Of a DNA stretch of 45,858 bases, positions 3,453 through 21,761 are shown in pieces (positions within the stretch are counted from its first letter, which is position 1; each line of letters begins with the position of its first letter). The stretch is from a virus, in the IMG/VR virus record IMGVR_UViG_3300017744_000019, positions 1 through 45,858 of that record; one strand, written 5' to 3'. Below the pieces are notes generated by a model that saw nothing but the letters and a program-made list of their open reading frames with translations, did not search any database and had not been told where the DNA came from. The translations under genes were made by a program, and so were the position numbers.

Positions 3453-3481
3453 TTGACAGACCTCTCATATATTGTTATAAT
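3453..3481 (+). promoter_or_regulatory. sigma70-type promoter
   Basis: TTGACA (3453-3458), 17-nt spacer, TATAAT (3476-3481): full consensus. It lies just after the glycosyltransferase stop and drives the gene at 3508 and the HAD gene. Confidence 0.85.
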
Positions 3482-4330: not shown

Positions 4331-4359
4331 ACTATTTAATCTGACAATACAGGTGAATG

Positions 4360-5865
4360 ATGAGATATGTAGGTTACAGTGAATTTTATCACGACTCAGG
4401 ATTTGCTATCATCAATGAAGATGGTACAGTAGAGTTCGCGACTCATGGCGAACGTTACTCCAAAAAGAAAAACGACCCGAATATTCCCGATGTACTCTGG
4501 GACATGATAAATGATGATGACCATGTGTCTTTTTATGAAGATCACGGTATCAAGTTTGATATGCGTGGCGGAGTTGATGCAACGGGTAGAACTCCAGAGA
4601 CGATTCAAAAATCTGAGGCATTCGAGAAGTTTCCTTATCCAGAAGCGTCAGTCTACGACGCACACCATCTACACCACGAGTCACACTGCGCCTCTGCGTT
4701 CTACACGCGTCCGTGGGATTCATCTGAAGATACTGTCCTAGTCTCTATCGATGGTGTTGGTGAGTTGCAGACCGCCTGCATCATGGATCACAAGTTCAAT
4801 CTAATCAAAGAATGGCACTACCCTAAGTCGGTAGGTCTAGTCTATACCCTCACAACTAAGTTCCTAGGTCTACGTCCACTCGAAGATGAGTACGTGGTAA
4901 TGGGGTTGTCTGCGTACCATGAAACGTGTCCTAAGTCAAGCGCAATCACCGATTGGTTGATTCGATGGTACGAAAACCTGTCTGACATCGCTCCGGAAGT
5001 TTCTCTAGGTATTGCAGTAGGCGCCCCAGAATCTAAACGTGAACAAGATCGTAAAAAGTTCCGGCGAGAATTCAAACGACGTATTCTATCTGTAGAAGAT
5101 AAAGTCGCTGCACGAGCAACCCAAGACTTTGCTGATTATGCGATCATGGGTATAATGCGCGAAGCGTCTAAATACGGTAATAAGTTATGTTATTCTGGTG
5201 GGTGTGCACAAAACGTTGTGATCAACTCCAGATTATTTGAACTGTTTGATGAGGTACATATTGCAGTATCTCCGACCGACGCGGGGTCTGGTTTGGGGAC
5301 AGCAGCCCGATCATGGGCAAAGGCAACCGGAAAAGACAAATTAATATGGAGTCCTTATGCGGGGCATAATATCGAAAGGGATGTTAATCCTAGCAGTATC
5401 GTCGATCATTTACTTGAACATCGCTATTGTGGAATTGCTAGTGGACGGGCTGAGTTCGGTCCTCGTGCTCTTGGCAACCGCTCCCTTATTGCTGATGTAA
5501 GATACGACGTACAAGACACTGTTAACACAATTAAAAGACGACAGAAGTATCGTCCGTTCGCACCTGCTATCCTAGAGGAATATGCGGAGGAATACTTCGA
5601 CGGACCAATGAATGAGCATATGCAGTTCACCTCATGGGCAAAGCATGACTATGCCCCAGTAACACACGTAGACGGAACTGCACGTGTTCAAATCGTGAAG
5701 AAGGATTGCGAATCAATCTTTCGAAAGGTAATTGAAGAATACCATGATAGAACTGGTGTTCCGATGTTACTAAATACCAGTCTCAACATAAGAGGGCGGC
5801 CAATGGTTAATGACGAACTAGACGCCCAATTATGGGAGCAAAAGTACGAAGTGAAAGTGTTCTGA
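4360..5865 (+). CDS. NodU/CmcH-type O-carbamoyltransferase
   Basis: 501 residues. It transfers a carbamoyl group from carbamoyl phosphate, via a carbamoyl-AMP intermediate in the family, to a hydroxyl of a sugar or nucleoside. The N-terminal kinase-fold domain carries a His-rich motif (HHLHHESHCASAFY) and IDGVGE. YSGGCAQNVVINSRL and GRAEFGPRALGNRS precede the C-terminal YrdC-like domain (RRQKYRPFAPAILEE, MLLNTSLNIRGRPMV). Full length. The ATG at 4360 has better SD spacing (AGG, 4351) than the adjacent one at 4357. The late promoter makes it a late gene. In some phages related enzymes modify hydroxymethylpyrimidines in DNA; here the acceptor is unknown. Confidence 0.85.
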   Translation: MRYVGYSEFYHDSGFAIINEDGTVEFATHGERYSKKKNDPNIPDVLWDMINDDDHVSFYEDHGIKFDMRGGVDATGRTPETIQKSEAFEKFPYPEASVYDAHHLHHESHCASAFYTRPWDSSEDTVLVSIDGVGELQTACIMDHKFNLIKEWHYPKSVGLVYTLTTKFLGLRPLEDEYVVMGLSAYHETCPKSSAITDWLIRWYENLSDIAPEVSLGIAVGAPESKREQDRKKFRREFKRRILSVEDKVAARATQDFADYAIMGIMREASKYGNKLCYSGGCAQNVVINSRLFELFDEVHIAVSPTDAGSGLGTAARSWAKATGKDKLIWSPYAGHNIERDVNPSSIVDHLLEHRYCGIASGRAEFGPRALGNRSLIADVRYDVQDTVNTIKRRQKYRPFAPAILEEYAEEYFDGPMNEHMQFTSWAKHDYAPVTHVDGTARVQIVKKDCESIFRKVIEEYHDRTGVPMLLNTSLNIRGRPMVNDELDAQLWEQKYEVKVF

Positions 5866-6344: not shown

Positions 6345-6698
6345 ATGTTTTCAGAACAAACAGTAGTCACACCAACTCCAGAAGCAAAACCATTCAAACA
6401 GAAGATTGAGCTTGAAGTAGAATTCGATACGTCGAACAAAGAAGTCAAAGCAAGTAAGTTTGAAGGGTTGTTACAGTTCGCGGATGTAATCGATGCATAT
6501 CGACTTTTCCCGCGAGCATTCATTGGTACCTATCTGTACCTACTCATCGAAGTCACTCAGTGGTTCATGACGATACCTGAACCAAATGCATCACAGGCAG
6601 GTCTTATATCTGTAGTGGTTGGTGCGGGTGCTGCATGGTTCGGTCTATACACATCTACAGGTTCGGCACGTAAAGTCAAGAGTATTAAGACTAGTTAA
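6345..6698 (+). CDS. Holin-like two-pass membrane protein
   Basis: 117 residues: charged N-terminal 45 residues, hydrophobic segment about 57-76 (FIGTYLYLLIEVTQWFM), a short loop with Pro and Asn, second segment about 83-103 (AGLISVVVGAGAAWFGLYT), basic tail. This fits a small phage holin or accessory membrane protein seen in T4-like marine phages. The holin role is inferred from topology only. Confidence 0.6.
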   Translation: MFSEQTVVTPTPEAKPFKQKIELEVEFDTSNKEVKASKFEGLLQFADVIDAYRLFPRAFIGTYLYLLIEVTQWFMTIPEPNASQAGLISVVVGAGAAWFGLYTSTGSARKVKSIKTS

Positions 6699-7633
6699 TG
6701 AAAATTTTATTAATTGCATTAACTGAGACATATGAGACTCTTTTGCCTGCGATAAAAGAAAAGAACTATGAGTATAAATTAATAACTCAACACAGTTGCC
6801 CTGACCGCAACGTGTATTATGGAGGAAAGGGAGTAGTAAGGTGGGTACAAGAAGAAATAAGAAAATTTGCACCGGACGTAGTGGTAAACAATATGGCTGG
6901 ACTTTTACTACCCCCGTCTAATAGTTACACTTATTTTGGAAACACGATTGCGAGTTCAAGGTTAGAGATGCAGAAGTGGGAGACCCGACAACAAGCAGAG
7001 GCCTTGGGTTTTGATTTTCTTTTTCCACCAGTAGTCTTGGAATGTAACCTAGATGAAATGGTTTACTTCCCTTATAAAACATTCCTTAAATCAAAAGGAA
7101 ACGATACTTTCTGTCAAGCTTGGAAAGTAACACCGGACACTGACTTAAAATATCATAATGCCACATTACAACATGATGAAGGTATTAAGTGTCCAGCATT
7201 TGTCGAGAAGGCAGTAGATTTTGAAGTGGAGGGTTATTGTCAGTTTAGGATAACTAACGGAACTTATGACATCAATTCTATACAAGGAATTTACGGAGAC
7301 GGAGGCGGATACAAACAACTCGTAGACTGTTCCGATTGGAAAAAAGATACGTGTACTATTGATATCCCTCGAAAACATCGTGACGCCATAGAAAAGGTGT
7401 GTGGTGAATGGTTAGAATATGCCTCAAGTTTAGGTGGAAGTTACGAAGGAAATATCGGTACCGGCGTCACCAGCGACTCAGAGGTTTACTGGTTCGAACA
7501 TAATTCAAGGCAAAGTATGTATTCAACGTTTCAAGGTGATGTTGATGATTGGTTAAACTCATTCGTCACTAACTCAGACGAAAACTTTTGGGTATTCTTA
7601 AATGAAGACTACCAAGGTCCTGAGATAAAGTAA
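6698..7633 (+). CDS. ATP-grasp/PurD-like ligase candidate
   Basis: 311 residues. The N-terminus looks like a pre-ATP-grasp Rossmann half (KILLIALTETYETLLPAI; FAPDVVVNNMAG). Then comes FGNTIASSRLEMQKWETRQ, reminiscent of glycinamide-ribotide-synthetase-type enzymes, and near residue 278 VYWFEHNSRQSM, similar to the metal-binding end of ATP-grasp domains. If correct, it joins a carboxylate to an amine with ATP. The Lys/Gly-rich loop is weak, so the call is tentative. The ATG overlaps the preceding stop. Confidence 0.5.
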   Translation: MKILLIALTETYETLLPAIKEKNYEYKLITQHSCPDRNVYYGGKGVVRWVQEEIRKFAPDVVVNNMAGLLLPPSNSYTYFGNTIASSRLEMQKWETRQQAEALGFDFLFPPVVLECNLDEMVYFPYKTFLKSKGNDTFCQAWKVTPDTDLKYHNATLQHDEGIKCPAFVEKAVDFEVEGYCQFRITNGTYDINSIQGIYGDGGGYKQLVDCSDWKKDTCTIDIPRKHRDAIEKVCGEWLEYASSLGGSYEGNIGTGVTSDSEVYWFEHNSRQSMYSTFQGDVDDWLNSFVTNSDENFWVFLNEDYQGPEIK

Positions 7634-8514
7634 TGGCATCCGAACTCGTGACCTGGCGCGGTACCCCAGGCGTCGGTGATTTTATGTGGGCACTTAATTC
7701 GTGTCACAGATATGCAGCCGACCACGATATCGATAAGATTAATCTGGAACTACATTGGGAACATGGACCAAAATATCTTCATCACTTCGAAGATCCAGAA
7801 ACGATCATCGAGCGATGTGACTATATACACAACTTCTATCACCAGAAAGAACGTGTAGAAATACATCACATCTTCAATGCTCAAGGTCGATACAAACACT
7901 GGAAGTTTAATGATGATGTTGTTTTAGAATCAAACGGTGAACGTAGGATTGCAGCGATAAATGCACACGGACACAAGGCTCGTTTTGAGTTTGAGTCGGG
8001 ACATTATACCGATGCTGTTGGAGGGGATGCTCCATGTAATGATTGGATATTCCGACAGGACGCATTTCAAGACTATGACCCAGATCGAATCGTATTCTGG
8101 CGTCCTACATGGAATGCAGAGAAACCTAGGACGTGGAAACGAATCTTTGACAACTCTGACTGGGACCATTTAATCAACCACTTCAGAAGTCTTGGTTTCA
8201 ACATGCACGAGTTATCATATCGTACGCCTGCGTCTGAGGCAATGCATCTAATATCCACATCACGGATGGTGATTTGTTACGACGGTATTTGGCATTATGT
8301 CGCGAAGAACTTTGCCCGACCACTTGCAGTAATCAGTGGTGAAGGCGTGACTAAATACCATACACCGAATGCGTTAAGACTCAATCCAGAAGTATCAAAA
8401 GAAGAAATGGGAGTCTGGTGGTGGATAGAAAATATAGAAGAATTGCTACATCAAACTAAACGAAAATCAGTAGAGTATGAAGAGAGGATGAAGACTTATT
8501 ATGGAAATGACTAG
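7633..8514 (+). CDS. GT-B-like (heptosyltransferase-fold) protein
   Basis: 293 residues. The start GTPGVGDFMWALNSCHRYA resembles the N-terminal GD loop of ADP-heptose-type (GT9) transferases. Near residues 208-235 the order SRMVICYDGIWHYVAKNF then RPLAVISG resembles the donor-binding half (D-G-x-x-H-x-A). It might act on surface glycans or on modified DNA; the substrate is unknown. The first base overlaps the upstream stop, and its last 14 nt overlap the radical SAM gene. Confidence 0.55.
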   Translation: MASELVTWRGTPGVGDFMWALNSCHRYAADHDIDKINLELHWEHGPKYLHHFEDPETIIERCDYIHNFYHQKERVEIHHIFNAQGRYKHWKFNDDVVLESNGERRIAAINAHGHKARFEFESGHYTDAVGGDAPCNDWIFRQDAFQDYDPDRIVFWRPTWNAEKPRTWKRIFDNSDWDHLINHFRSLGFNMHELSYRTPASEAMHLISTSRMVICYDGIWHYVAKNFARPLAVISGEGVTKYHTPNALRLNPEVSKEEMGVWWWIENIEELLHQTKRKSVEYEERMKTYYGND

Positions 8515-9490
8515 AGAAACATTTCAAATTGACCGTGCAGTAATTGAGGTAGCGGGGGGATGTAACTACTCGTGTTCCATGTGTCCACAAGACTTACGAG
8601 AAGGTGGGCGACATAAAGGGTTCCGTCGTATCATGAAACTCGATGAGTTCGAAGGATACGTTGCGGACTGTGCTCAGTACGGATTAAATGTTGTCAACCT
8701 AGACGGTTCTGGTGAGGCGACGATGGCAAAAAACCTACCTGAATATATCAAGGTAGTGAAGAAGTATGGAGCAAAATGTTTCATCTTCTCTAACGGATTC
8801 AAGATGCAGGGCAAATACATGCGCGACTGTGTCGATGCTGGCCTGGACTTCTATCGGTTTTCATTCATTGGTGCAGACGAACAAGACTACACCAAGTGGA
8901 TGTACAATGCTGTGGGTGGACACTACGCACAGATTAGACGTAACATCGAAGAGATGGTTGCGTATGTAAAAGAGTCTGGTTCAGAATGCGTGATATCAAC
9001 CTATCACCTAATAACAGACAACGACAATATCGACCAAGAACTAGACAAGTATAAGACATTGGTTGATGAGTTAGGCGTCAAGACTGAAATATGGAAAATG
9101 CACAACTGGTCCGGTGTTCAAGATATCACCGAATCTGGTGTACGTGAAGGTAAGAAAAAGACTTGTGGACGACCGTTCTCTCCAGACGTAGTGATACGTG
9201 CTGGTGGTCTAGACAAGAAAACGGGTGCAGTGCACCCATGTTGTCAAGTTTTAGGACGGGACGAAGAAGCAGTATTAGGTCACGCCTCAGAGAACAACAT
9301 ACTAGATATATTCTTTGGAGAAGAGTATGAGACTTTACGTGAGCAACACCGTACCGAAGACTACCCAGATTTCTGTAAGAGCTGTGACTTTTTGGTAGAT
9401 GATCCTGAAGTATTAGTATATACAAACCACGAACGTGATCTTATGAAGATGCACGGAACTAATTTTACACTTAACGATTATAGGGACTAA
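8501..9490 (+). CDS. Radical SAM protein with SPASM-like domain
   Basis: 329 residues. The 4Fe-4S/SAM motif CNYSCSMC has Cys21, Cys25 and Cys28. LDGSGEAT (68-75) is the GGE-like SAM site. A C-terminal Cys set (222, 247, 248, 292, 295) looks like a SPASM or twitch auxiliary cluster. Such proteins modify peptides, sugars or nucleosides through the 5'-deoxyadenosyl radical. No precursor-peptide gene is obvious nearby, so a nucleoside or sugar substrate is as plausible as RiPP maturation. It overlaps the GT-B gene; a second ATG at 8507 is possible. Confidence 0.82.
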   Translation: MEMTRETFQIDRAVIEVAGGCNYSCSMCPQDLREGGRHKGFRRIMKLDEFEGYVADCAQYGLNVVNLDGSGEATMAKNLPEYIKVVKKYGAKCFIFSNGFKMQGKYMRDCVDAGLDFYRFSFIGADEQDYTKWMYNAVGGHYAQIRRNIEEMVAYVKESGSECVISTYHLITDNDNIDQELDKYKTLVDELGVKTEIWKMHNWSGVQDITESGVREGKKKTCGRPFSPDVVIRAGGLDKKTGAVHPCCQVLGRDEEAVLGHASENNILDIFFGEEYETLREQHRTEDYPDFCKSCDFLVDDPEVLVYTNHERDLMKMHGTNFTLNDYRD

Positions 9491-9492
9491 CT

Positions 9493-9696
9493 ATGTTCAA
9501 TTTCTCAAAACTATCTTTTTATGTAATGATGGCAAAGACTTGGTTGCAAGCGCGATTAGGCGAAAGAACCACGTACGACGGTGTGATTATCGTTGCACTT
9601 TGTGCCAGTTATATTCTATTTGATTCAATCATTACTCTAGGTGCATACGCTGGTGTTCTGTACGGCCTATGGACAATGTGGCAACAACAAAAATAA
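9493..9696 (+). CDS. Small membrane protein
   Basis: 67 residues with one or two hydrophobic segments (about 30-60, VIIVALCASYILFDS and TLGAYAGVLYGLW) and a polar C-terminus. Starts 2 nt after the radical SAM stop. No family recognised. Confidence 0.6.
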   Translation: MFNFSKLSFYVMMAKTWLQARLGERTTYDGVIIVALCASYILFDSIITLGAYAGVLYGLWTMWQQQK

Positions 9697-9706
9697 TTTA
9701 AATAAA

Positions 9707-9726
9707 CCGACTCTTTAGAGAGTCGG
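9707..9726 (+). terminator. Hairpin, probable terminator
   Basis: Perfect 8-bp stem CCGACTCT / AGAGTCGG with a TTAG loop just after the membrane-protein gene. The following T-run is short (AATTTAT), so termination may be partial. Confidence 0.6.
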
Positions 9727-9730
9727 AATT

Positions 9731-9738
9731 TATAAATA
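9731..9738 (+). promoter_or_regulatory. T4-type late promoter (TATAAATA)
   Basis: Exact late octamer 4 nt after the hairpin. It gives an mRNA leader of about 90 nt for the gene at 9835. Confidence 0.75.
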
Positions 9739-9834
9739 ATAGGACTTATTCCGTATTTGACTGGCCAGTCCAGCGATTTACTCTTCGCACGTGCGGATAA
9801 GGATAATTCTAAAGAATCCATAAGGAATAATAAA

Positions 9835-10548
9835 ATGCCAAACCCAATTAGTATTGTAACGCTAAACGATCATTATATGGTCGGTAGTGCTGCATCCGGT
9901 CATGACTTTGTTCAAAATATGTACGGTATGTACATTCGTTATGAGCAAGAACTAAAAACCCACGACTCAAACCTTTCAATTTCAAACTCTGCCTATGAGC
10001 ATATCTTCAAGCCACTGATACATACTTCTCTGGGTCACAAACCAGACGGAGATACACTGACTGCTGATCTTATTATAGAAGGTCAAGAGACTGCGGCGGT
10101 TGCAACAAACCAACTTCTAAAAATTACTAGAGACTACAAAGATGTATTAGTATCTCTATGGAAAACTTGGGAACCAGAATCATCATGGGATGAATTCCGT
10201 GACGGTCCTCTAGGTTTCGAATTGATTTCAGCATACGAAGCAGATTCATCTAAGTTCGTATATGATGTAGAAATGTCATACGAAGAGCTAGTTCAATCAC
10301 CTCACACTCAATTGACTGAATTAGTTAACCACCTATTACCACGTCAAGATAATCAAGAACTAGAAAGTTTTGGTGAGCCAAAGAGAGAAATTTCTCTAGG
10401 TTGTATCGATATGGTTGTAGATAATTCTGAAGTCCGTAGTCTACGTGACGGAGTAAGCGAAGGTCTTCTAGATTCTGTTGGCGTACACAAGCAATTCTTG
10501 GCGCCAGAAGAAATCGAAGAAGTAAACGAGTTTATTGCAAGCTTGTAA
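9835..10548 (+). CDS. Late-expressed hypothetical protein
   Basis: 237 residues, no family recognised. It starts MPNPISIVTLNDHYMVGSAASGHDF and has several acidic helices. The ATG follows an AAGGAAT SD at 9822; the longer in-frame extension to 9757 lacks an RBS. It has its own late promoter and its own strong terminator, so it is a monocistronic late unit, which suggests an abundant product, perhaps a virion or accessory protein. Confidence 0.7.
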   Translation: MPNPISIVTLNDHYMVGSAASGHDFVQNMYGMYIRYEQELKTHDSNLSISNSAYEHIFKPLIHTSLGHKPDGDTLTADLIIEGQETAAVATNQLLKITRDYKDVLVSLWKTWEPESSWDEFRDGPLGFELISAYEADSSKFVYDVEMSYEELVQSPHTQLTELVNHLLPRQDNQELESFGEPKREISLGCIDMVVDNSEVRSLRDGVSEGLLDSVGVHKQFLAPEEIEEVNEFIASL

Positions 10549-17409: not shown

Positions 17410-18975
17410 ATGACCATTTTATTTGATAGTTTAGTCAGAGAAGTTGATGTTGGTGCGGTTTTAACAAAATTCACCGACATCTCACCGAACAACCAATTCA
17501 AGTATGAGAACGGTATCCGTATTCGCGAACGCCGTATCCTTACAGTGCGTGAGTACCTTGCACTGATTCACTTTGGATATGTGATAAAGTCTATTAAGAC
17601 TAATCGCCCAGATGTGAACAAGGTGACTAAGAAGCAAGGTATCACAGAGACCTTCTTCACGGGTAATGACTTACCTAATCTTGCGGTATCTGTTTACTCA
17701 ACACCTGACGGTGAACTGCGTTTACAAATACGTGTTACTGACGGTGGTCACCGCAGCCGAACTTTCTCTGAGTTCGTGAGTAACCAGTTCGTGTTGTCTA
17801 ATCAGGCATACTTTGTCAATGACCACGGTGGTGAGACAACTATCGCTAGTATGACTGCTGAAGAAATTCTGGAGGCGTATCCTGCTGCGTTTAACCGTTG
17901 GTTAGAGGAAGAACTGCTATTCACTGTTTATCACAACTCTACACCAAACATGGATGCGATTGAGACGCGTAACCGTAATGCTGGTTCAAACCACTCACGT
18001 GCGGAGCATCGCAATACACTAGATGAGAATGTTATCGCAGAGGCGGTTCGTAACACATCGCGCCTAATCGATGAGCAAGACACTGTTCCACATCGATTGT
18101 TTCTTGATTCGAAATTCATTGGTTTCGCGCCGGGTCGCTTGAAGTATGACATTGTGACCTCTCGCTTGTTGAAGATGAACATTAACGGTGATGCCGCAGC
18201 TGCGTGTGGCGACGATGAGCTTGATGAAATGTTTGAGCAAGGTTCTATTATCGATTCAGGTAAGTATACCGTCCGCGAGAAGCGCGTGTTTGAGAATGCA
18301 CTCAAGTCGAGTATAAAGATGTTAGATATTATCGCAAGTATTTACGATGAGTATCCATCGACTAAGATCAAGGCTGCAAAGCGTAACGAAGGTAGCTTCA
18401 CTGCGCTCACCCGATTCTTGATGAGTATTGACACTGCTTTGCGATCAGAGCAAAAAAACTTTGTGGTGAGAGATCCAAAGGCATTCGCCCGTGCGTGGGT
18501 TTACATGTTGGAGGAAATCAAGAGCGACAACACCTTGGGTGCGTGGATCAAGGACAGCAGCGATGAGTGGACTATTTCTGCTGCATTCAGTAAGTACTTG
18601 GGTGTGCACAATCACTTGAGTAAGACACGATTCACAATCTCTCAGATGATGACACGATTTGCTGGTCGTTACGAAGAGTTCGGTATTGTGGTATTAGATG
18701 GTCTCCGTACGTTCAGTGACCAAGATATCCACAATCGTTATGTTGAAGTCAATCGTCAGTGCGAATCTTGTTCAGTTCCTTTAGAGGCAAACGAAGTTCA
18801 AGGTGACCACGATATCCCTCACTCTTGGGGAGTCGATGTGGGTGGTGTTACTACTCCCGATAACTTGCGTATATTATGCGGTTCATGTAACAATGAGAAG
18901 TCTAACAAGTACACTTTTGATGAGTACCTGTCCTTTCGCGCAGAACGTGAAACGTTACTTGAAGTCGCCGCATAA
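17410..18975 (+). CDS. DUF262-like/HNH nuclease
   Basis: 521 residues. The N-terminal region has VTDGGHRSRTF (109-119), similar to the DGxQR nucleotide-binding loop of DUF262/ParB-like domains as in GmrS. The C-terminus is an HNH module: Cys451-x2-Cys454, the GDHDIPHSW block around His467, then Cys490-x2-Cys493 with NNEKSNK. This domain order resembles GmrSD/type IV restriction enzymes that cut modified DNA, but other DUF262-HNH roles exist. It is followed after 8 nt by the PP-loop gene. Being phage-borne, it probably attacks host or rival DNA. Confidence 0.65.
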   Translation: MTILFDSLVREVDVGAVLTKFTDISPNNQFKYENGIRIRERRILTVREYLALIHFGYVIKSIKTNRPDVNKVTKKQGITETFFTGNDLPNLAVSVYSTPDGELRLQIRVTDGGHRSRTFSEFVSNQFVLSNQAYFVNDHGGETTIASMTAEEILEAYPAAFNRWLEEELLFTVYHNSTPNMDAIETRNRNAGSNHSRAEHRNTLDENVIAEAVRNTSRLIDEQDTVPHRLFLDSKFIGFAPGRLKYDIVTSRLLKMNINGDAAAACGDDELDEMFEQGSIIDSGKYTVREKRVFENALKSSIKMLDIIASIYDEYPSTKIKAAKRNEGSFTALTRFLMSIDTALRSEQKNFVVRDPKAFARAWVYMLEEIKSDNTLGAWIKDSSDEWTISAAFSKYLGVHNHLSKTRFTISQMMTRFAGRYEEFGIVVLDGLRTFSDQDIHNRYVEVNRQCESCSVPLEANEVQGDHDIPHSWGVDVGGVTTPDNLRILCGSCNNEKSNKYTFDEYLSFRAERETLLEVAA

Positions 18976-18983
18976 GTAGATGC

Positions 18984-19850
18984 ATGATACGAGACTTTAT
19001 TACTGATCACATCGATACTCACGTAACAGACGACACTGTCGGACTACTACTGTCCGGCGGTGTCGATTCTATATCTGTAGGTATCAGCGCACAGGATGCT
19101 GGACGCAAGGTCCACGCATACAGTTTCACTCTGGACAATCATGAGTCCTATGACTTTGTCAAGGCACGTGACGTAGCAGATACTATGGGGTGGGAATTCA
19201 CTCCGGTCATCATACCAACCGCAAACATCAAACAAGACTTCCAACGACTGGTCGAACTAGGTTGTCGTAAAAAGTCTGAGTTCGAGGCAGCCGCATATCC
19301 TTTTCTTTATGTTTATGACGCCATGGTCGAAAAGTATTCGGTCACTGGATGGGTCGCAGATGCATACTTTGGTGCGTCTCGTAAAGCAACCCAACGGTAC
19401 TCTTCTTTTAAAAAGAAGCGTAACTATGTGAAGTGGTGTAAAGAGAGTGGAGACAAACGCGTCAACTGGAATGAGTTCCGTGAAGCGTATCTCAATGGAC
19501 ACTGTGCTGGTATTGCGACCCACAACAAAGTTGCGGAGATGTACGGTAAGATCCATATTGCTCCGTGGGGTGACCAACGAGTCCGTGACTATCTTATGCA
19601 GTTCTCATGGCAAGAACTGAACACGCCACACCAGAAGAACATCATACGCGAAGAGTACGAGATCGAAAAACTCTTTGGTAATGTAAAACCTCACATCAAT
19701 TTACAGTTGGGTTCTCAAATAGACAAACTGTTCGAGTCATTGTTGCTCGATACCCAGATCAACTGGAAACGTCGGAACAGGGTCATGGACCTATGTCGCG
19801 ATCACTATCAACAAACCTTTGTGTCCGACCTATCTGATTTTATCACTTGA
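18984..19850 (+). CDS. PP-loop (AsnB C-terminal-like) ATP pyrophosphatase
   Basis: 288 residues. The PP-loop SGGVDS (24-29) after hydrophobic strand VGLLL is diagnostic of the adenine-nucleotide alpha-hydrolase fold. A WGDQRVRDYLMQFSWQELN block near residues 196-214 is like the substrate-activating part of asparagine synthetase. Such enzymes adenylate a carboxylate or carbonyl and then add nitrogen or sulfur. No N-terminal glutaminase domain is present. It sits immediately before the promoter of the C5-methyltransferase/CmoA pair, so tailoring of a carboxylated base is possible (inference). Confidence 0.7.
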   Translation: MIRDFITDHIDTHVTDDTVGLLLSGGVDSISVGISAQDAGRKVHAYSFTLDNHESYDFVKARDVADTMGWEFTPVIIPTANIKQDFQRLVELGCRKKSEFEAAAYPFLYVYDAMVEKYSVTGWVADAYFGASRKATQRYSSFKKKRNYVKWCKESGDKRVNWNEFREAYLNGHCAGIATHNKVAEMYGKIHIAPWGDQRVRDYLMQFSWQELNTPHQKNIIREEYEIEKLFGNVKPHINLQLGSQIDKLFESLLLDTQINWKRRNRVMDLCRDHYQQTFVSDLSDFIT

Positions 19851-19875
19851 CAGACAATGCTATATACTGTATAAT
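19847..19875 (+). promoter_or_regulatory. sigma70-type promoter for the DNA-modification pair
   Basis: TTGACA (19847-19852) overlaps the end of the PP-loop gene, 17-nt spacer, TATAAT (19870-19875). Followed 25 nt later by the methyltransferase ATG. Confidence 0.85.
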
Positions 19876-19900
19876 GTCTGTTAATAAATGAAGGTATATT

Positions 19901-21049
19901 ATGAGTTATAACCCGTACAATTTACAAGATGTCTATGACGCGGCATCCCAGAAAAAGTTCAAAGTCGTTTCTACGTTCGCGGGGGGCGGTGGATCTTCTA
20001 CAGGTTACCGCCTTGCGGGTGCGGACATTCTCGCCATCAATGAGTTTGTAGAAGAGGCACGAGTCACCTACAAAGAAAACTATCCCGACACACCTATCGT
20101 CCCGAACGACATCAAAGAACTAACAGGTCAAGACTTTCTGGACCTTGTTGGTCTTGAGAAGGGTGAGTTGGATATCCTCGACGGTTCGCCTCCATGCTCT
20201 GCATTCTCTGTCGCGGGTAAACTGTCTCATTCATCTGACGGTAAACACTCTGACGGGTGGGGACAGACTAAGTCCTACAGCGATGGTAAGATTGTAGAGA
20301 ACATCGAAGATCTGTTCTTTGAGTTCCTACGTGTGGCAAACGAGATTCAACCCAAAGTCATCGTTGCAGAGAATGTTAAAGGTCTCACGATCGGTGAGGC
20401 AAAAGAGTACTACAATCGTATCCTCAATGAGTTCGAGAACATTGGGTATGAAGTGGTATCCGAAGTCATGGACTCTCGCTACTATGGTGTATCCCAGACG
20501 CGTAGTCGTGTCATCTTTATTGCAGTACGCCAAGACGTTGCGGATGAAGTGGGACTAAACTTCTTGACCATGAATCACTTGTTTCCAGAACCAGCAAGAA
20601 CCGCCATACCACTCAAGGATGCTTTAGTCGATCTGGAGTATGACGAAGAAGAAGTTAAGTATCTGACGGAGAAGTTTGAGAGAACCGCGTACTGGAAAGA
20701 CACTGGATCTCTAATGCCAACGTTCCCCGATAAAGTTTTGACTGGTGGTGATTATCATCCCAAGGGTCATCACTTCAACCTCAAGCGTGTGTCTCTAGAG
20801 GCGCCTGCACCTACATTGACTGCAATGGGTAACGGGGATACAACCGCTGGTGCATTTCATTGGTCTGAGTCTCGCAAGTTGACACTAGGGGAATTAAAGC
20901 GTATAATGTCACTTCCCGATGACTTTAAACTGACGGGTAAATGGAATCAGAAGGCAGAGCGTATCGGTCGTATGGTTCCACCATTGATGATGAAACAGAT
21001 TGCTGAGTCAGTCTATGAGAACGTATTGAAGGTGTACAATGAAAGATAG
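19901..21049 (+). CDS. DNA (cytosine-5) methyltransferase with motif X Asn to Arg
   Basis: 382 residues with a complete C5-MTase core: motif I FAGGGGSSTGYRLAG (26-40), catalytic PPC (Cys99 in DGSPPCSAFS), ENV (157-159), QTRSR (199-203), and a C-terminal LKRIMSLPDDF and motif X RIGRMVPPLM. In typical enzymes motif X reads GN(S/A)V; here the Asn is Arg357. That Asn contacts the methyl-donor side of SAM, and its change to Lys is known to let M.MpeI use carboxy-SAM. The CmoA-like gene directly downstream, overlapping by 11 nt, makes this a candidate carboxymethyltransferase. Target sequence unknown. Confidence 0.85.
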   Translation: MSYNPYNLQDVYDAASQKKFKVVSTFAGGGGSSTGYRLAGADILAINEFVEEARVTYKENYPDTPIVPNDIKELTGQDFLDLVGLEKGELDILDGSPPCSAFSVAGKLSHSSDGKHSDGWGQTKSYSDGKIVENIEDLFFEFLRVANEIQPKVIVAENVKGLTIGEAKEYYNRILNEFENIGYEVVSEVMDSRYYGVSQTRSRVIFIAVRQDVADEVGLNFLTMNHLFPEPARTAIPLKDALVDLEYDEEEVKYLTEKFERTAYWKDTGSLMPTFPDKVLTGGDYHPKGHHFNLKRVSLEAPAPTLTAMGNGDTTAGAFHWSESRKLTLGELKRIMSLPDDFKLTGKWNQKAERIGRMVPPLMMKQIAESVYENVLKVYNER

Positions 21050-21761
21050 AGAGAGTTATAACAAACCAGACTTTAGTTTTGCCCACCGTGAGGAAGGATT
21101 CGATAATCACATCGAGAACTCTATTCGCGGGTACAGCAATCTACATCACGATGTCATAAAGTTATCCGAATACTTTGTCGAGGATCTAACTGACGTTGTC
21201 GACATCGGTTGTTCGACGGGCAAGACCATCTATGAGATGATGAAACAGAACAATCGATTCGCACCTCTGGCGCACTACTCAGGTATCGAGTATGCGGAAG
21301 GATTTGTTGACAACATGAACTCTCGCCACAAGCAGATTGATAATGAGGGTCTGGGTGATGTAGACTTCCATAATATGGATGTGCGTAACGCAACGTTCGC
21401 TAACTGTTCTCTCGTCACCTCTCTATTCACTCTACAGTTCATGCCACCACGTTCGCGACGTGACTTAGTGAAGAAGATATATGCTGGTTTAAACACAGGT
21501 GGTGCATTCATATTTGCAGAGAAGACTATGGCGAGAGATGCTCGTCTCCAAGAAATCATGACGTTTCAGTTCTATGATCACAAGTCTAAAAACTTCGAAG
21601 CAGAAGACTTGTTATCTAAGGAACGTGAACTCCGTTCTATGATGAAGTGTTCAACTTGGAATGATCTACATTCACTCTGCATGACTGCGGGATTCTGTGC
21701 CACCAAGATTCAACCCTTCTGGCAGAACCATCTCTTTGTGGGTGCCATCGCCATAAAATAA
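21039..21761 (+). CDS. CmoA-like carboxy-SAM synthase candidate
   Basis: 240 residues, close to E. coli CmoA (247). SAM motif I VVDIGCSTGKTIYEM (53-67), RGYSN (30-34), VTSLFTLQFMPP (126-137), LVKKIYAGLNTGGAFIFAEK (143-162) and SKERELRS (193-200) align segment by segment with CmoA, including an Arg (196) at the place of the carboxylate-binding Arg (Arg199 as I recall). CmoA converts SAM and prephenate into carboxy-SAM for tRNA cmo5U. No CmoB is in the window; its partner is the overlapping C5-methyltransferase. Confidence 0.75.
   Translation: MKDRESYNKPDFSFAHREEGFDNHIENSIRGYSNLHHDVIKLSEYFVEDLTDVVDIGCSTGKTIYEMMKQNNRFAPLAHYSGIEYAEGFVDNMNSRHKQIDNEGLGDVDFHNMDVRNATFANCSLVTSLFTLQFMPPRSRRDLVKKIYAGLNTGGAFIFAEKTMARDARLQEIMTFQFYDHKSKNFEAEDLLSKERELRSMMKCSTWNDLHSLCMTAGFCATKIQPFWQNHLFVGAIAIK

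Follow-up and report, generated by a model that had tools for sequence, protein, structure and literature searches.

What would a phage make with a C5-cytosine DNA methyltransferase that carries an arginine in motif X, and with an overlapping homologue of the carboxy-SAM synthase CmoA? This gene pair lies in a stretch of viral DNA of 45,858 nt (IMG/VR record IMGVR_UViG_3300017744_000019), which we refer to as the window. A previous sequence-only reading had proposed that the phage makes its own carboxy-SAM and uses it to write 5-carboxymethylcytosine into its DNA. The two open reading frames are present as that reading described them, both on the plus strand and with 11 nt in common, and they belong to a run of genes in the order nuclease-CmoY-CmoX-CmoA (Table 1). 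We are confident in reading the locus as a DNA hypermodification module of the CmoA-CmoX-CmoY type carried by the phage, and the basis for this here is the identity of the genes, the conservation of their residues, their linkage and their strong promoters.

Table 1. Genes and promoters of the locus, in window coordinates
Feature	Position	Strand	Basis and remarks
Putative HNH nuclease, N-terminal DGGHRxR domain	17410..18975	+	PF01844; ends 8 nt upstream of CmoY
CmoY, putative AMP-forming amide ligase, asparagine-synthetase-like	18984..19850	+	PF00733; 288 aa
Consensus sigma-70 promoter before CmoX	19847..19875	+	12/12; overlaps the CmoY stop codon
CmoX, putative DNA cytosine C5-carboxymethyltransferase	19901..21049	+	PF00145, 8yf3_A; 382 aa
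Consensus sigma-70 promoter within CmoX, ahead of CmoA	20879..20907	+	12/12
CmoA, carboxy-SAM synthase homologue	21039..21761	+	4gek, phrog_4752; 240 aa

Perfect sigma-70 sites number seven in the window against 0.03 expected by chance. Besides the two in Table 1, they lie on the plus strand at 3453, 14438, 15165, 16656 and 27836. Strong promoters at CmoX and CmoA would fit early expression by the host polymerase. Elsewhere, the window encodes a NodU/TobZ-like carbamoyltransferase (4357-5865; PF16861, PF02543), a member of a family also tied to phage base carbamoylation, and a radical SAM protein with a SPASM domain (8501-9490) that has two proteins adjoining it at 6698-8514.

The CmoA-CmoX-CmoY system has been described in Synechococcus phage S-B43 (Yang et al., Nat Commun, Dec 2025; PMC12783734). 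There, CmoA produces carboxy-SAM, which is the sole donor accepted by CmoX, an Arg-type C5-methyltransferase (PDB 8YF3) whose arginine contacts the carboxylate of the donor. CmoX generates 5-carboxymethylcytosine at GC, and CmoY, an asparagine-synthetase-like ligase, adds glycine to the carboxymethylcytosine. Native S-B43 DNA was found to hold the glycine amide, with free carboxymethylcytosine absent, and carboxymethylated DNA resists HhaI (PMC12783734). The sequence-only reading knew of no natural example of such chemistry, a statement overtaken by this publication.

By Pfam, the window CmoX is named merely a C-5 methylase (PF00145, E=4e-53). Its best solved relative is the S-B43 enzyme (8yf3_A, E=1e-151 over 373 residues), a similarity well above chance level, and the two proteins are 64% identical. 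The nucleophile motif SPPC occupies residues 96-99, with Cys99 as the nucleophile, and in motif X (RIGRMVPP) the usual asparagine slot holds Arg357, which aligns with S-B43 Arg350. The complete C5 core with a motif-X arginine, the starting point of the sequence-only reading, is thereby confirmed. Residues F25, E47, F48 and D69 of the S-B43 carboxy-SAM pocket correspond to F26, E48, F49 and D70 in the window, and all of the pocket residues named in PMC12783734 are kept, including S96-P97-P98-C99 and R357. The target-recognition regions of the two enzymes are just 43% identical, making the GC specificity of the window CmoX uncertain. As a possible pointer to the target we considered the depletion of GpC. 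No dinucleotide in the window is more depleted (0.76), and the GpC mean is 0.77 in contigs with CmoX versus 0.95 in contigs with the nuclease only, but cyanophages without CmoX span 0.69 to 1.00, so the depletion speaks neither for nor against a GC target and we dropped this line of evidence. In the CmoX genes of Erwinia and Dickeya jumbo phages (L006:6001-8106 and L179:29986-32115), an intein with matches to Hint and intein-splicing domains sits exactly at the catalytic cysteine (SPP/C).

The assignment of the downstream gene as a CmoA homologue is likewise upheld, by nearly full-length matches to solved CmoA structures (4gek, 1e-22; 1im8, 2e-20). The protein also matches phrog_4752 (E=3e-56) and is 53% identical to S-B43 CmoA. 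The sequence-only reading had placed weight on Arg196 as a carboxylate-binding residue. This part of its case is weak: in S-B43 CmoA, which is active, a lysine stands at the site that corresponds to Arg199 of E. coli CmoA, and we set Arg196 aside as key evidence. The E. coli Arg199 falls opposite the window Arg196 by phmmer and opposite Glu195 by MAFFT; the E. coli sequence used for the latter is in agreement with the 4gek alignment. In the window CmoA, the conserved basic residue is instead Arg199 (73/77 sequences).

The sequence-only reading had proposed a survey of the co-occurrence of CmoA-like genes with this type of motif X. In viral contigs, CmoA lies beside 71 of 80 close relatives of the Arg-type CmoX, an outcome that largely favors the proposal. 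Among the nine without an adjacent CmoA, four (L052, L057, L067 and L088) are truncated by the end of the contig or lie very close to it, whereas the other five (L077-L081) form a single CmoX lineage that keeps the arginine without CmoA nearby and may rely on a host CmoA or on a distant gene. An annotated phage collection yielded 69 CmoA records and 58 CmoY-like records, largely from the same phage groups. Where the motif-X residue of CmoX relatives is instead leucine (Melnitz) or methionine (Flavobacterium), CmoA does not adjoin, and neither group is among the CmoA matches listed from the annotated collection; the relative in Melnitz phages of Methylophilales (L003:4010-5227) is 41% identical.

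Other CmoA neighborhoods depart from this pattern. In Staphylococcus phages (L175:6004-7703 and L176:5992-8510), CmoA adjoins a distant C5-methyltransferase with glycine at the motif-X arginine slot, and one of the two has a CmoY-like gene in between. This pair is a counter-example to a strict arginine rule; perhaps these enzymes bind carboxy-SAM in an alternative way that Arg-based searching misses. Alcaligenes phage Afa-NA1 encodes a CmoA-like protein (L177:5917-6669) and, a few kb away, a DNA adenine methylase (9142-10461), with no C5-methyltransferase found within 6 kb. In two close relatives, a PD-(D/E)XK-like gene of nuclease-like appearance, recognized by eye and without a Pfam match, follows CmoA (L012:7066-7587 and L097:10866-11381); it was not seen in the window.

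By analogy with the S-B43 homologues, CmoA would convert SAM and prephenate to carboxy-SAM. Cys99 of CmoX would attack C6 of cytosine while Arg357 holds the carboxylate of carboxy-SAM, and the carboxymethyl group would be moved to C5. The modified cytosines would then shield phage DNA from host nucleases. For the homologues, each chemical step has been shown, as has the resistance of carboxymethylated DNA to HhaI (PMC12783734); for the window proteins we infer their activity, the dinucleotide that they target (GC in S-B43), which amine is added and how the phage benefits. The core of the sequence-only reading, carboxy-SAM made by the phage and used by an Arg-type C5 enzyme, has thus been demonstrated in S-B43. 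Its end product, free carboxymethylcytosine, fares differently: the reading overlooked CmoY, and S-B43 DNA held the glycine amide alone. The window CmoY (PF00733, E=2e-13) adjoins CmoX and has the C-terminal fold of asparagine synthase, with a PP-loop (SGGVDS); its AlphaFold model (pLDDT 85) best matches beta-lactam synthetase (1mc1) and AsnB (1ct9) in the PDB. With such a ligase directly upstream of CmoX, the pathway probably ends in an amidated carboxymethylcytosine rather than the free acid.

The gene upstream of CmoY, likewise absent from the sequence-only reading of this gene pair, raises a separate question. Its product has an HNH match (PF01844, E=9e-8, residues 451-500) and an N-terminal DGGHRSR motif, and no relatives of it were found in the annotated phage collection. 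We gathered nuclease relatives through a family-only search of viral contigs, combined with the loci from the CmoX search, and obtained 39 clusters at 70% identity. About 8 of these have Cmo genes, and in most of the 8 the nuclease gene and CmoY either share 4 nt or are no more than 25 nt apart. The remaining 31 occur elsewhere in T4-like phages, some of them next to GIY-YIG-like genes as read by eye. It is a serious possibility, somewhat short of an even chance, that the gene is a free-standing (homing-type) endonuclease unrelated to the module and inserted beside CmoY. The breadth of the family and its many T4-like phage contexts are in keeping with this, as is the finding that close copies of the window nuclease occur in three contigs alone, all 100% identical. 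Against it, the position directly upstream of CmoY recurs in family members that are only 21-28% identical, with 4-nt overlaps, which suggests co-selection. We therefore read the nuclease as repeatedly co-selected with CmoY, although its role is uncertain; tentatively, it may be a restriction-like or host-DNA-degrading partner.

As the amine used by the window CmoY, glycine is likely, though not certain, judging from the sequence of the ligase. The alternative that CmoY couples ammonia, another amino acid or a polyamine to carboxymethylcytosine, yielding an amide not yet described, is unlikely but carries appreciable weight. The window CmoY is 39% identical to S-B43 CmoY and differs from it in the neighborhood of the pocket, with an additional residue after CRKK, a change of H to E and a change of ADG to ADA, close to the conserved CRKK and GxxAD segments, which leaves room for an amine other than glycine; ligase clusters using different amines were predicted in PMC12783734. 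Conversely, the framework segments CRKK, GxxAD, HINLQLGS and RxRVMD are common to both enzymes, and the window CmoY has no glutaminase domain, making glutamine-derived ammonia an unlikely substrate.

A further reading takes the four genes at 17410-21761 as one restriction-like unit, in which the HNH protein cuts DNA lacking hypermodified cytosine, from the host or a rival phage, and CmoA, CmoX and CmoY protect the phage. In several divergent lineages, the majority of which came from the nuclease-only query, the nuclease gene overlaps CmoY or directly adjoins it, and members of the family match several profiles: GmrSD_N in 5 of 28 (best 4e-4), DndB in one, and the REase_II and NsnA models in many. 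In other Cmo contigs, the slot adjacent to CmoY appears by eye to hold a ParB-like gene (Pfam gave no match), and 1,660 ParBc genes neighboring the system, their role left unexplained, were noted in PMC12783734. However, 31 of the 39 nuclease clusters lie away from Cmo genes, some of them beside GIY-YIG-like genes in the manner of mobile endonucleases, some relatives of the module do without the nuclease, and the L097 copy is broken by frameshifts. The AlphaFold model of the nuclease, made from five aligned sequences, had a pLDDT of 38 and was discarded. GmrSD/DUF262 type IV and HNH restriction enzymes resemble the nuclease in that its relatives match GmrSD_N and HNH; the window protein itself falls below threshold for GmrSD_N (DUF262), matches HNH alone, is phage-encoded and is linked to CmoY. 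On balance we consider such a unit improbable. Its most specific form, a phage-borne restriction and hypermodification unit in which a GmrSD_N-like/HNH nuclease destroys DNA without amidated carboxymethylcytosine, the amine possibly not being glycine, is if anything more doubtful.

Finally, an ordinary C5-methyltransferase making 5-methylcytosine beside a CmoA homologue with a role in tRNA modification would match what both parent families do in bacteria and the bare Pfam name, but we set this aside as very improbable given the change of the motif-X asparagine to Arg357, the 64% identity to an enzyme that uses carboxy-SAM only, the overlap of CmoA with CmoX in a conserved neighborhood, and an adjoining ligase that requires a carboxylate.

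Interpreted as a hypermodification module, the locus provides the carboxymethylcytosine pathway with an independent natural example, and one with a mechanism that was deducible by a reader of raw sequence. Both the amine used by CmoY and the role of the nuclease or ParB-like gene next to it are now testable with named genes. That Arg-type enzymes might form a wider family was guessed correctly: PMC12783734 counts 5,615 candidate CmoX, 4,257 CmoA and 2,251 ligases. IMG/VR v4 was among the data searched there, and the window contig, a virus record with IMG/VR classing, may already be in that set.

Compared with known systems, the window CmoX shares its fold and covalent mechanism with M.HhaI-type C5-methyltransferases (PF00145), but has arginine in place of Asn304 of M.HhaI and is predicted to take carboxy-SAM rather than SAM as its donor. 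Engineered M.MpeI N374K likewise has a basic residue at this motif-X position that permits carboxy-SAM use, a parallel raised in the sequence-only reading and drawn for the CmoX arginine in PMC12783734; that enzyme is engineered and CG-specific, whereas the window CmoX is natural. The CmoX of Synechococcus phage S-CRM01 is 63% identical to the window enzyme and adjoins CmoA, although no CmoY is annotated beside it. The S-B43 system has in common with the window all three enzymes, the motif-X arginine, the pocket residues, tight gene clustering and a T4-like phage group. It differs in gene order (CmoA-CmoY-CmoX), in the divergence of its CmoY noted above, and in having no nuclease of the window type beside its Cmo genes. 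The window locus is thus very probably a further example of the published CmoA-CmoX-CmoY system rather than a new mechanism, and what it adds is limited to the nuclease linked to CmoY and the divergence of CmoY itself.
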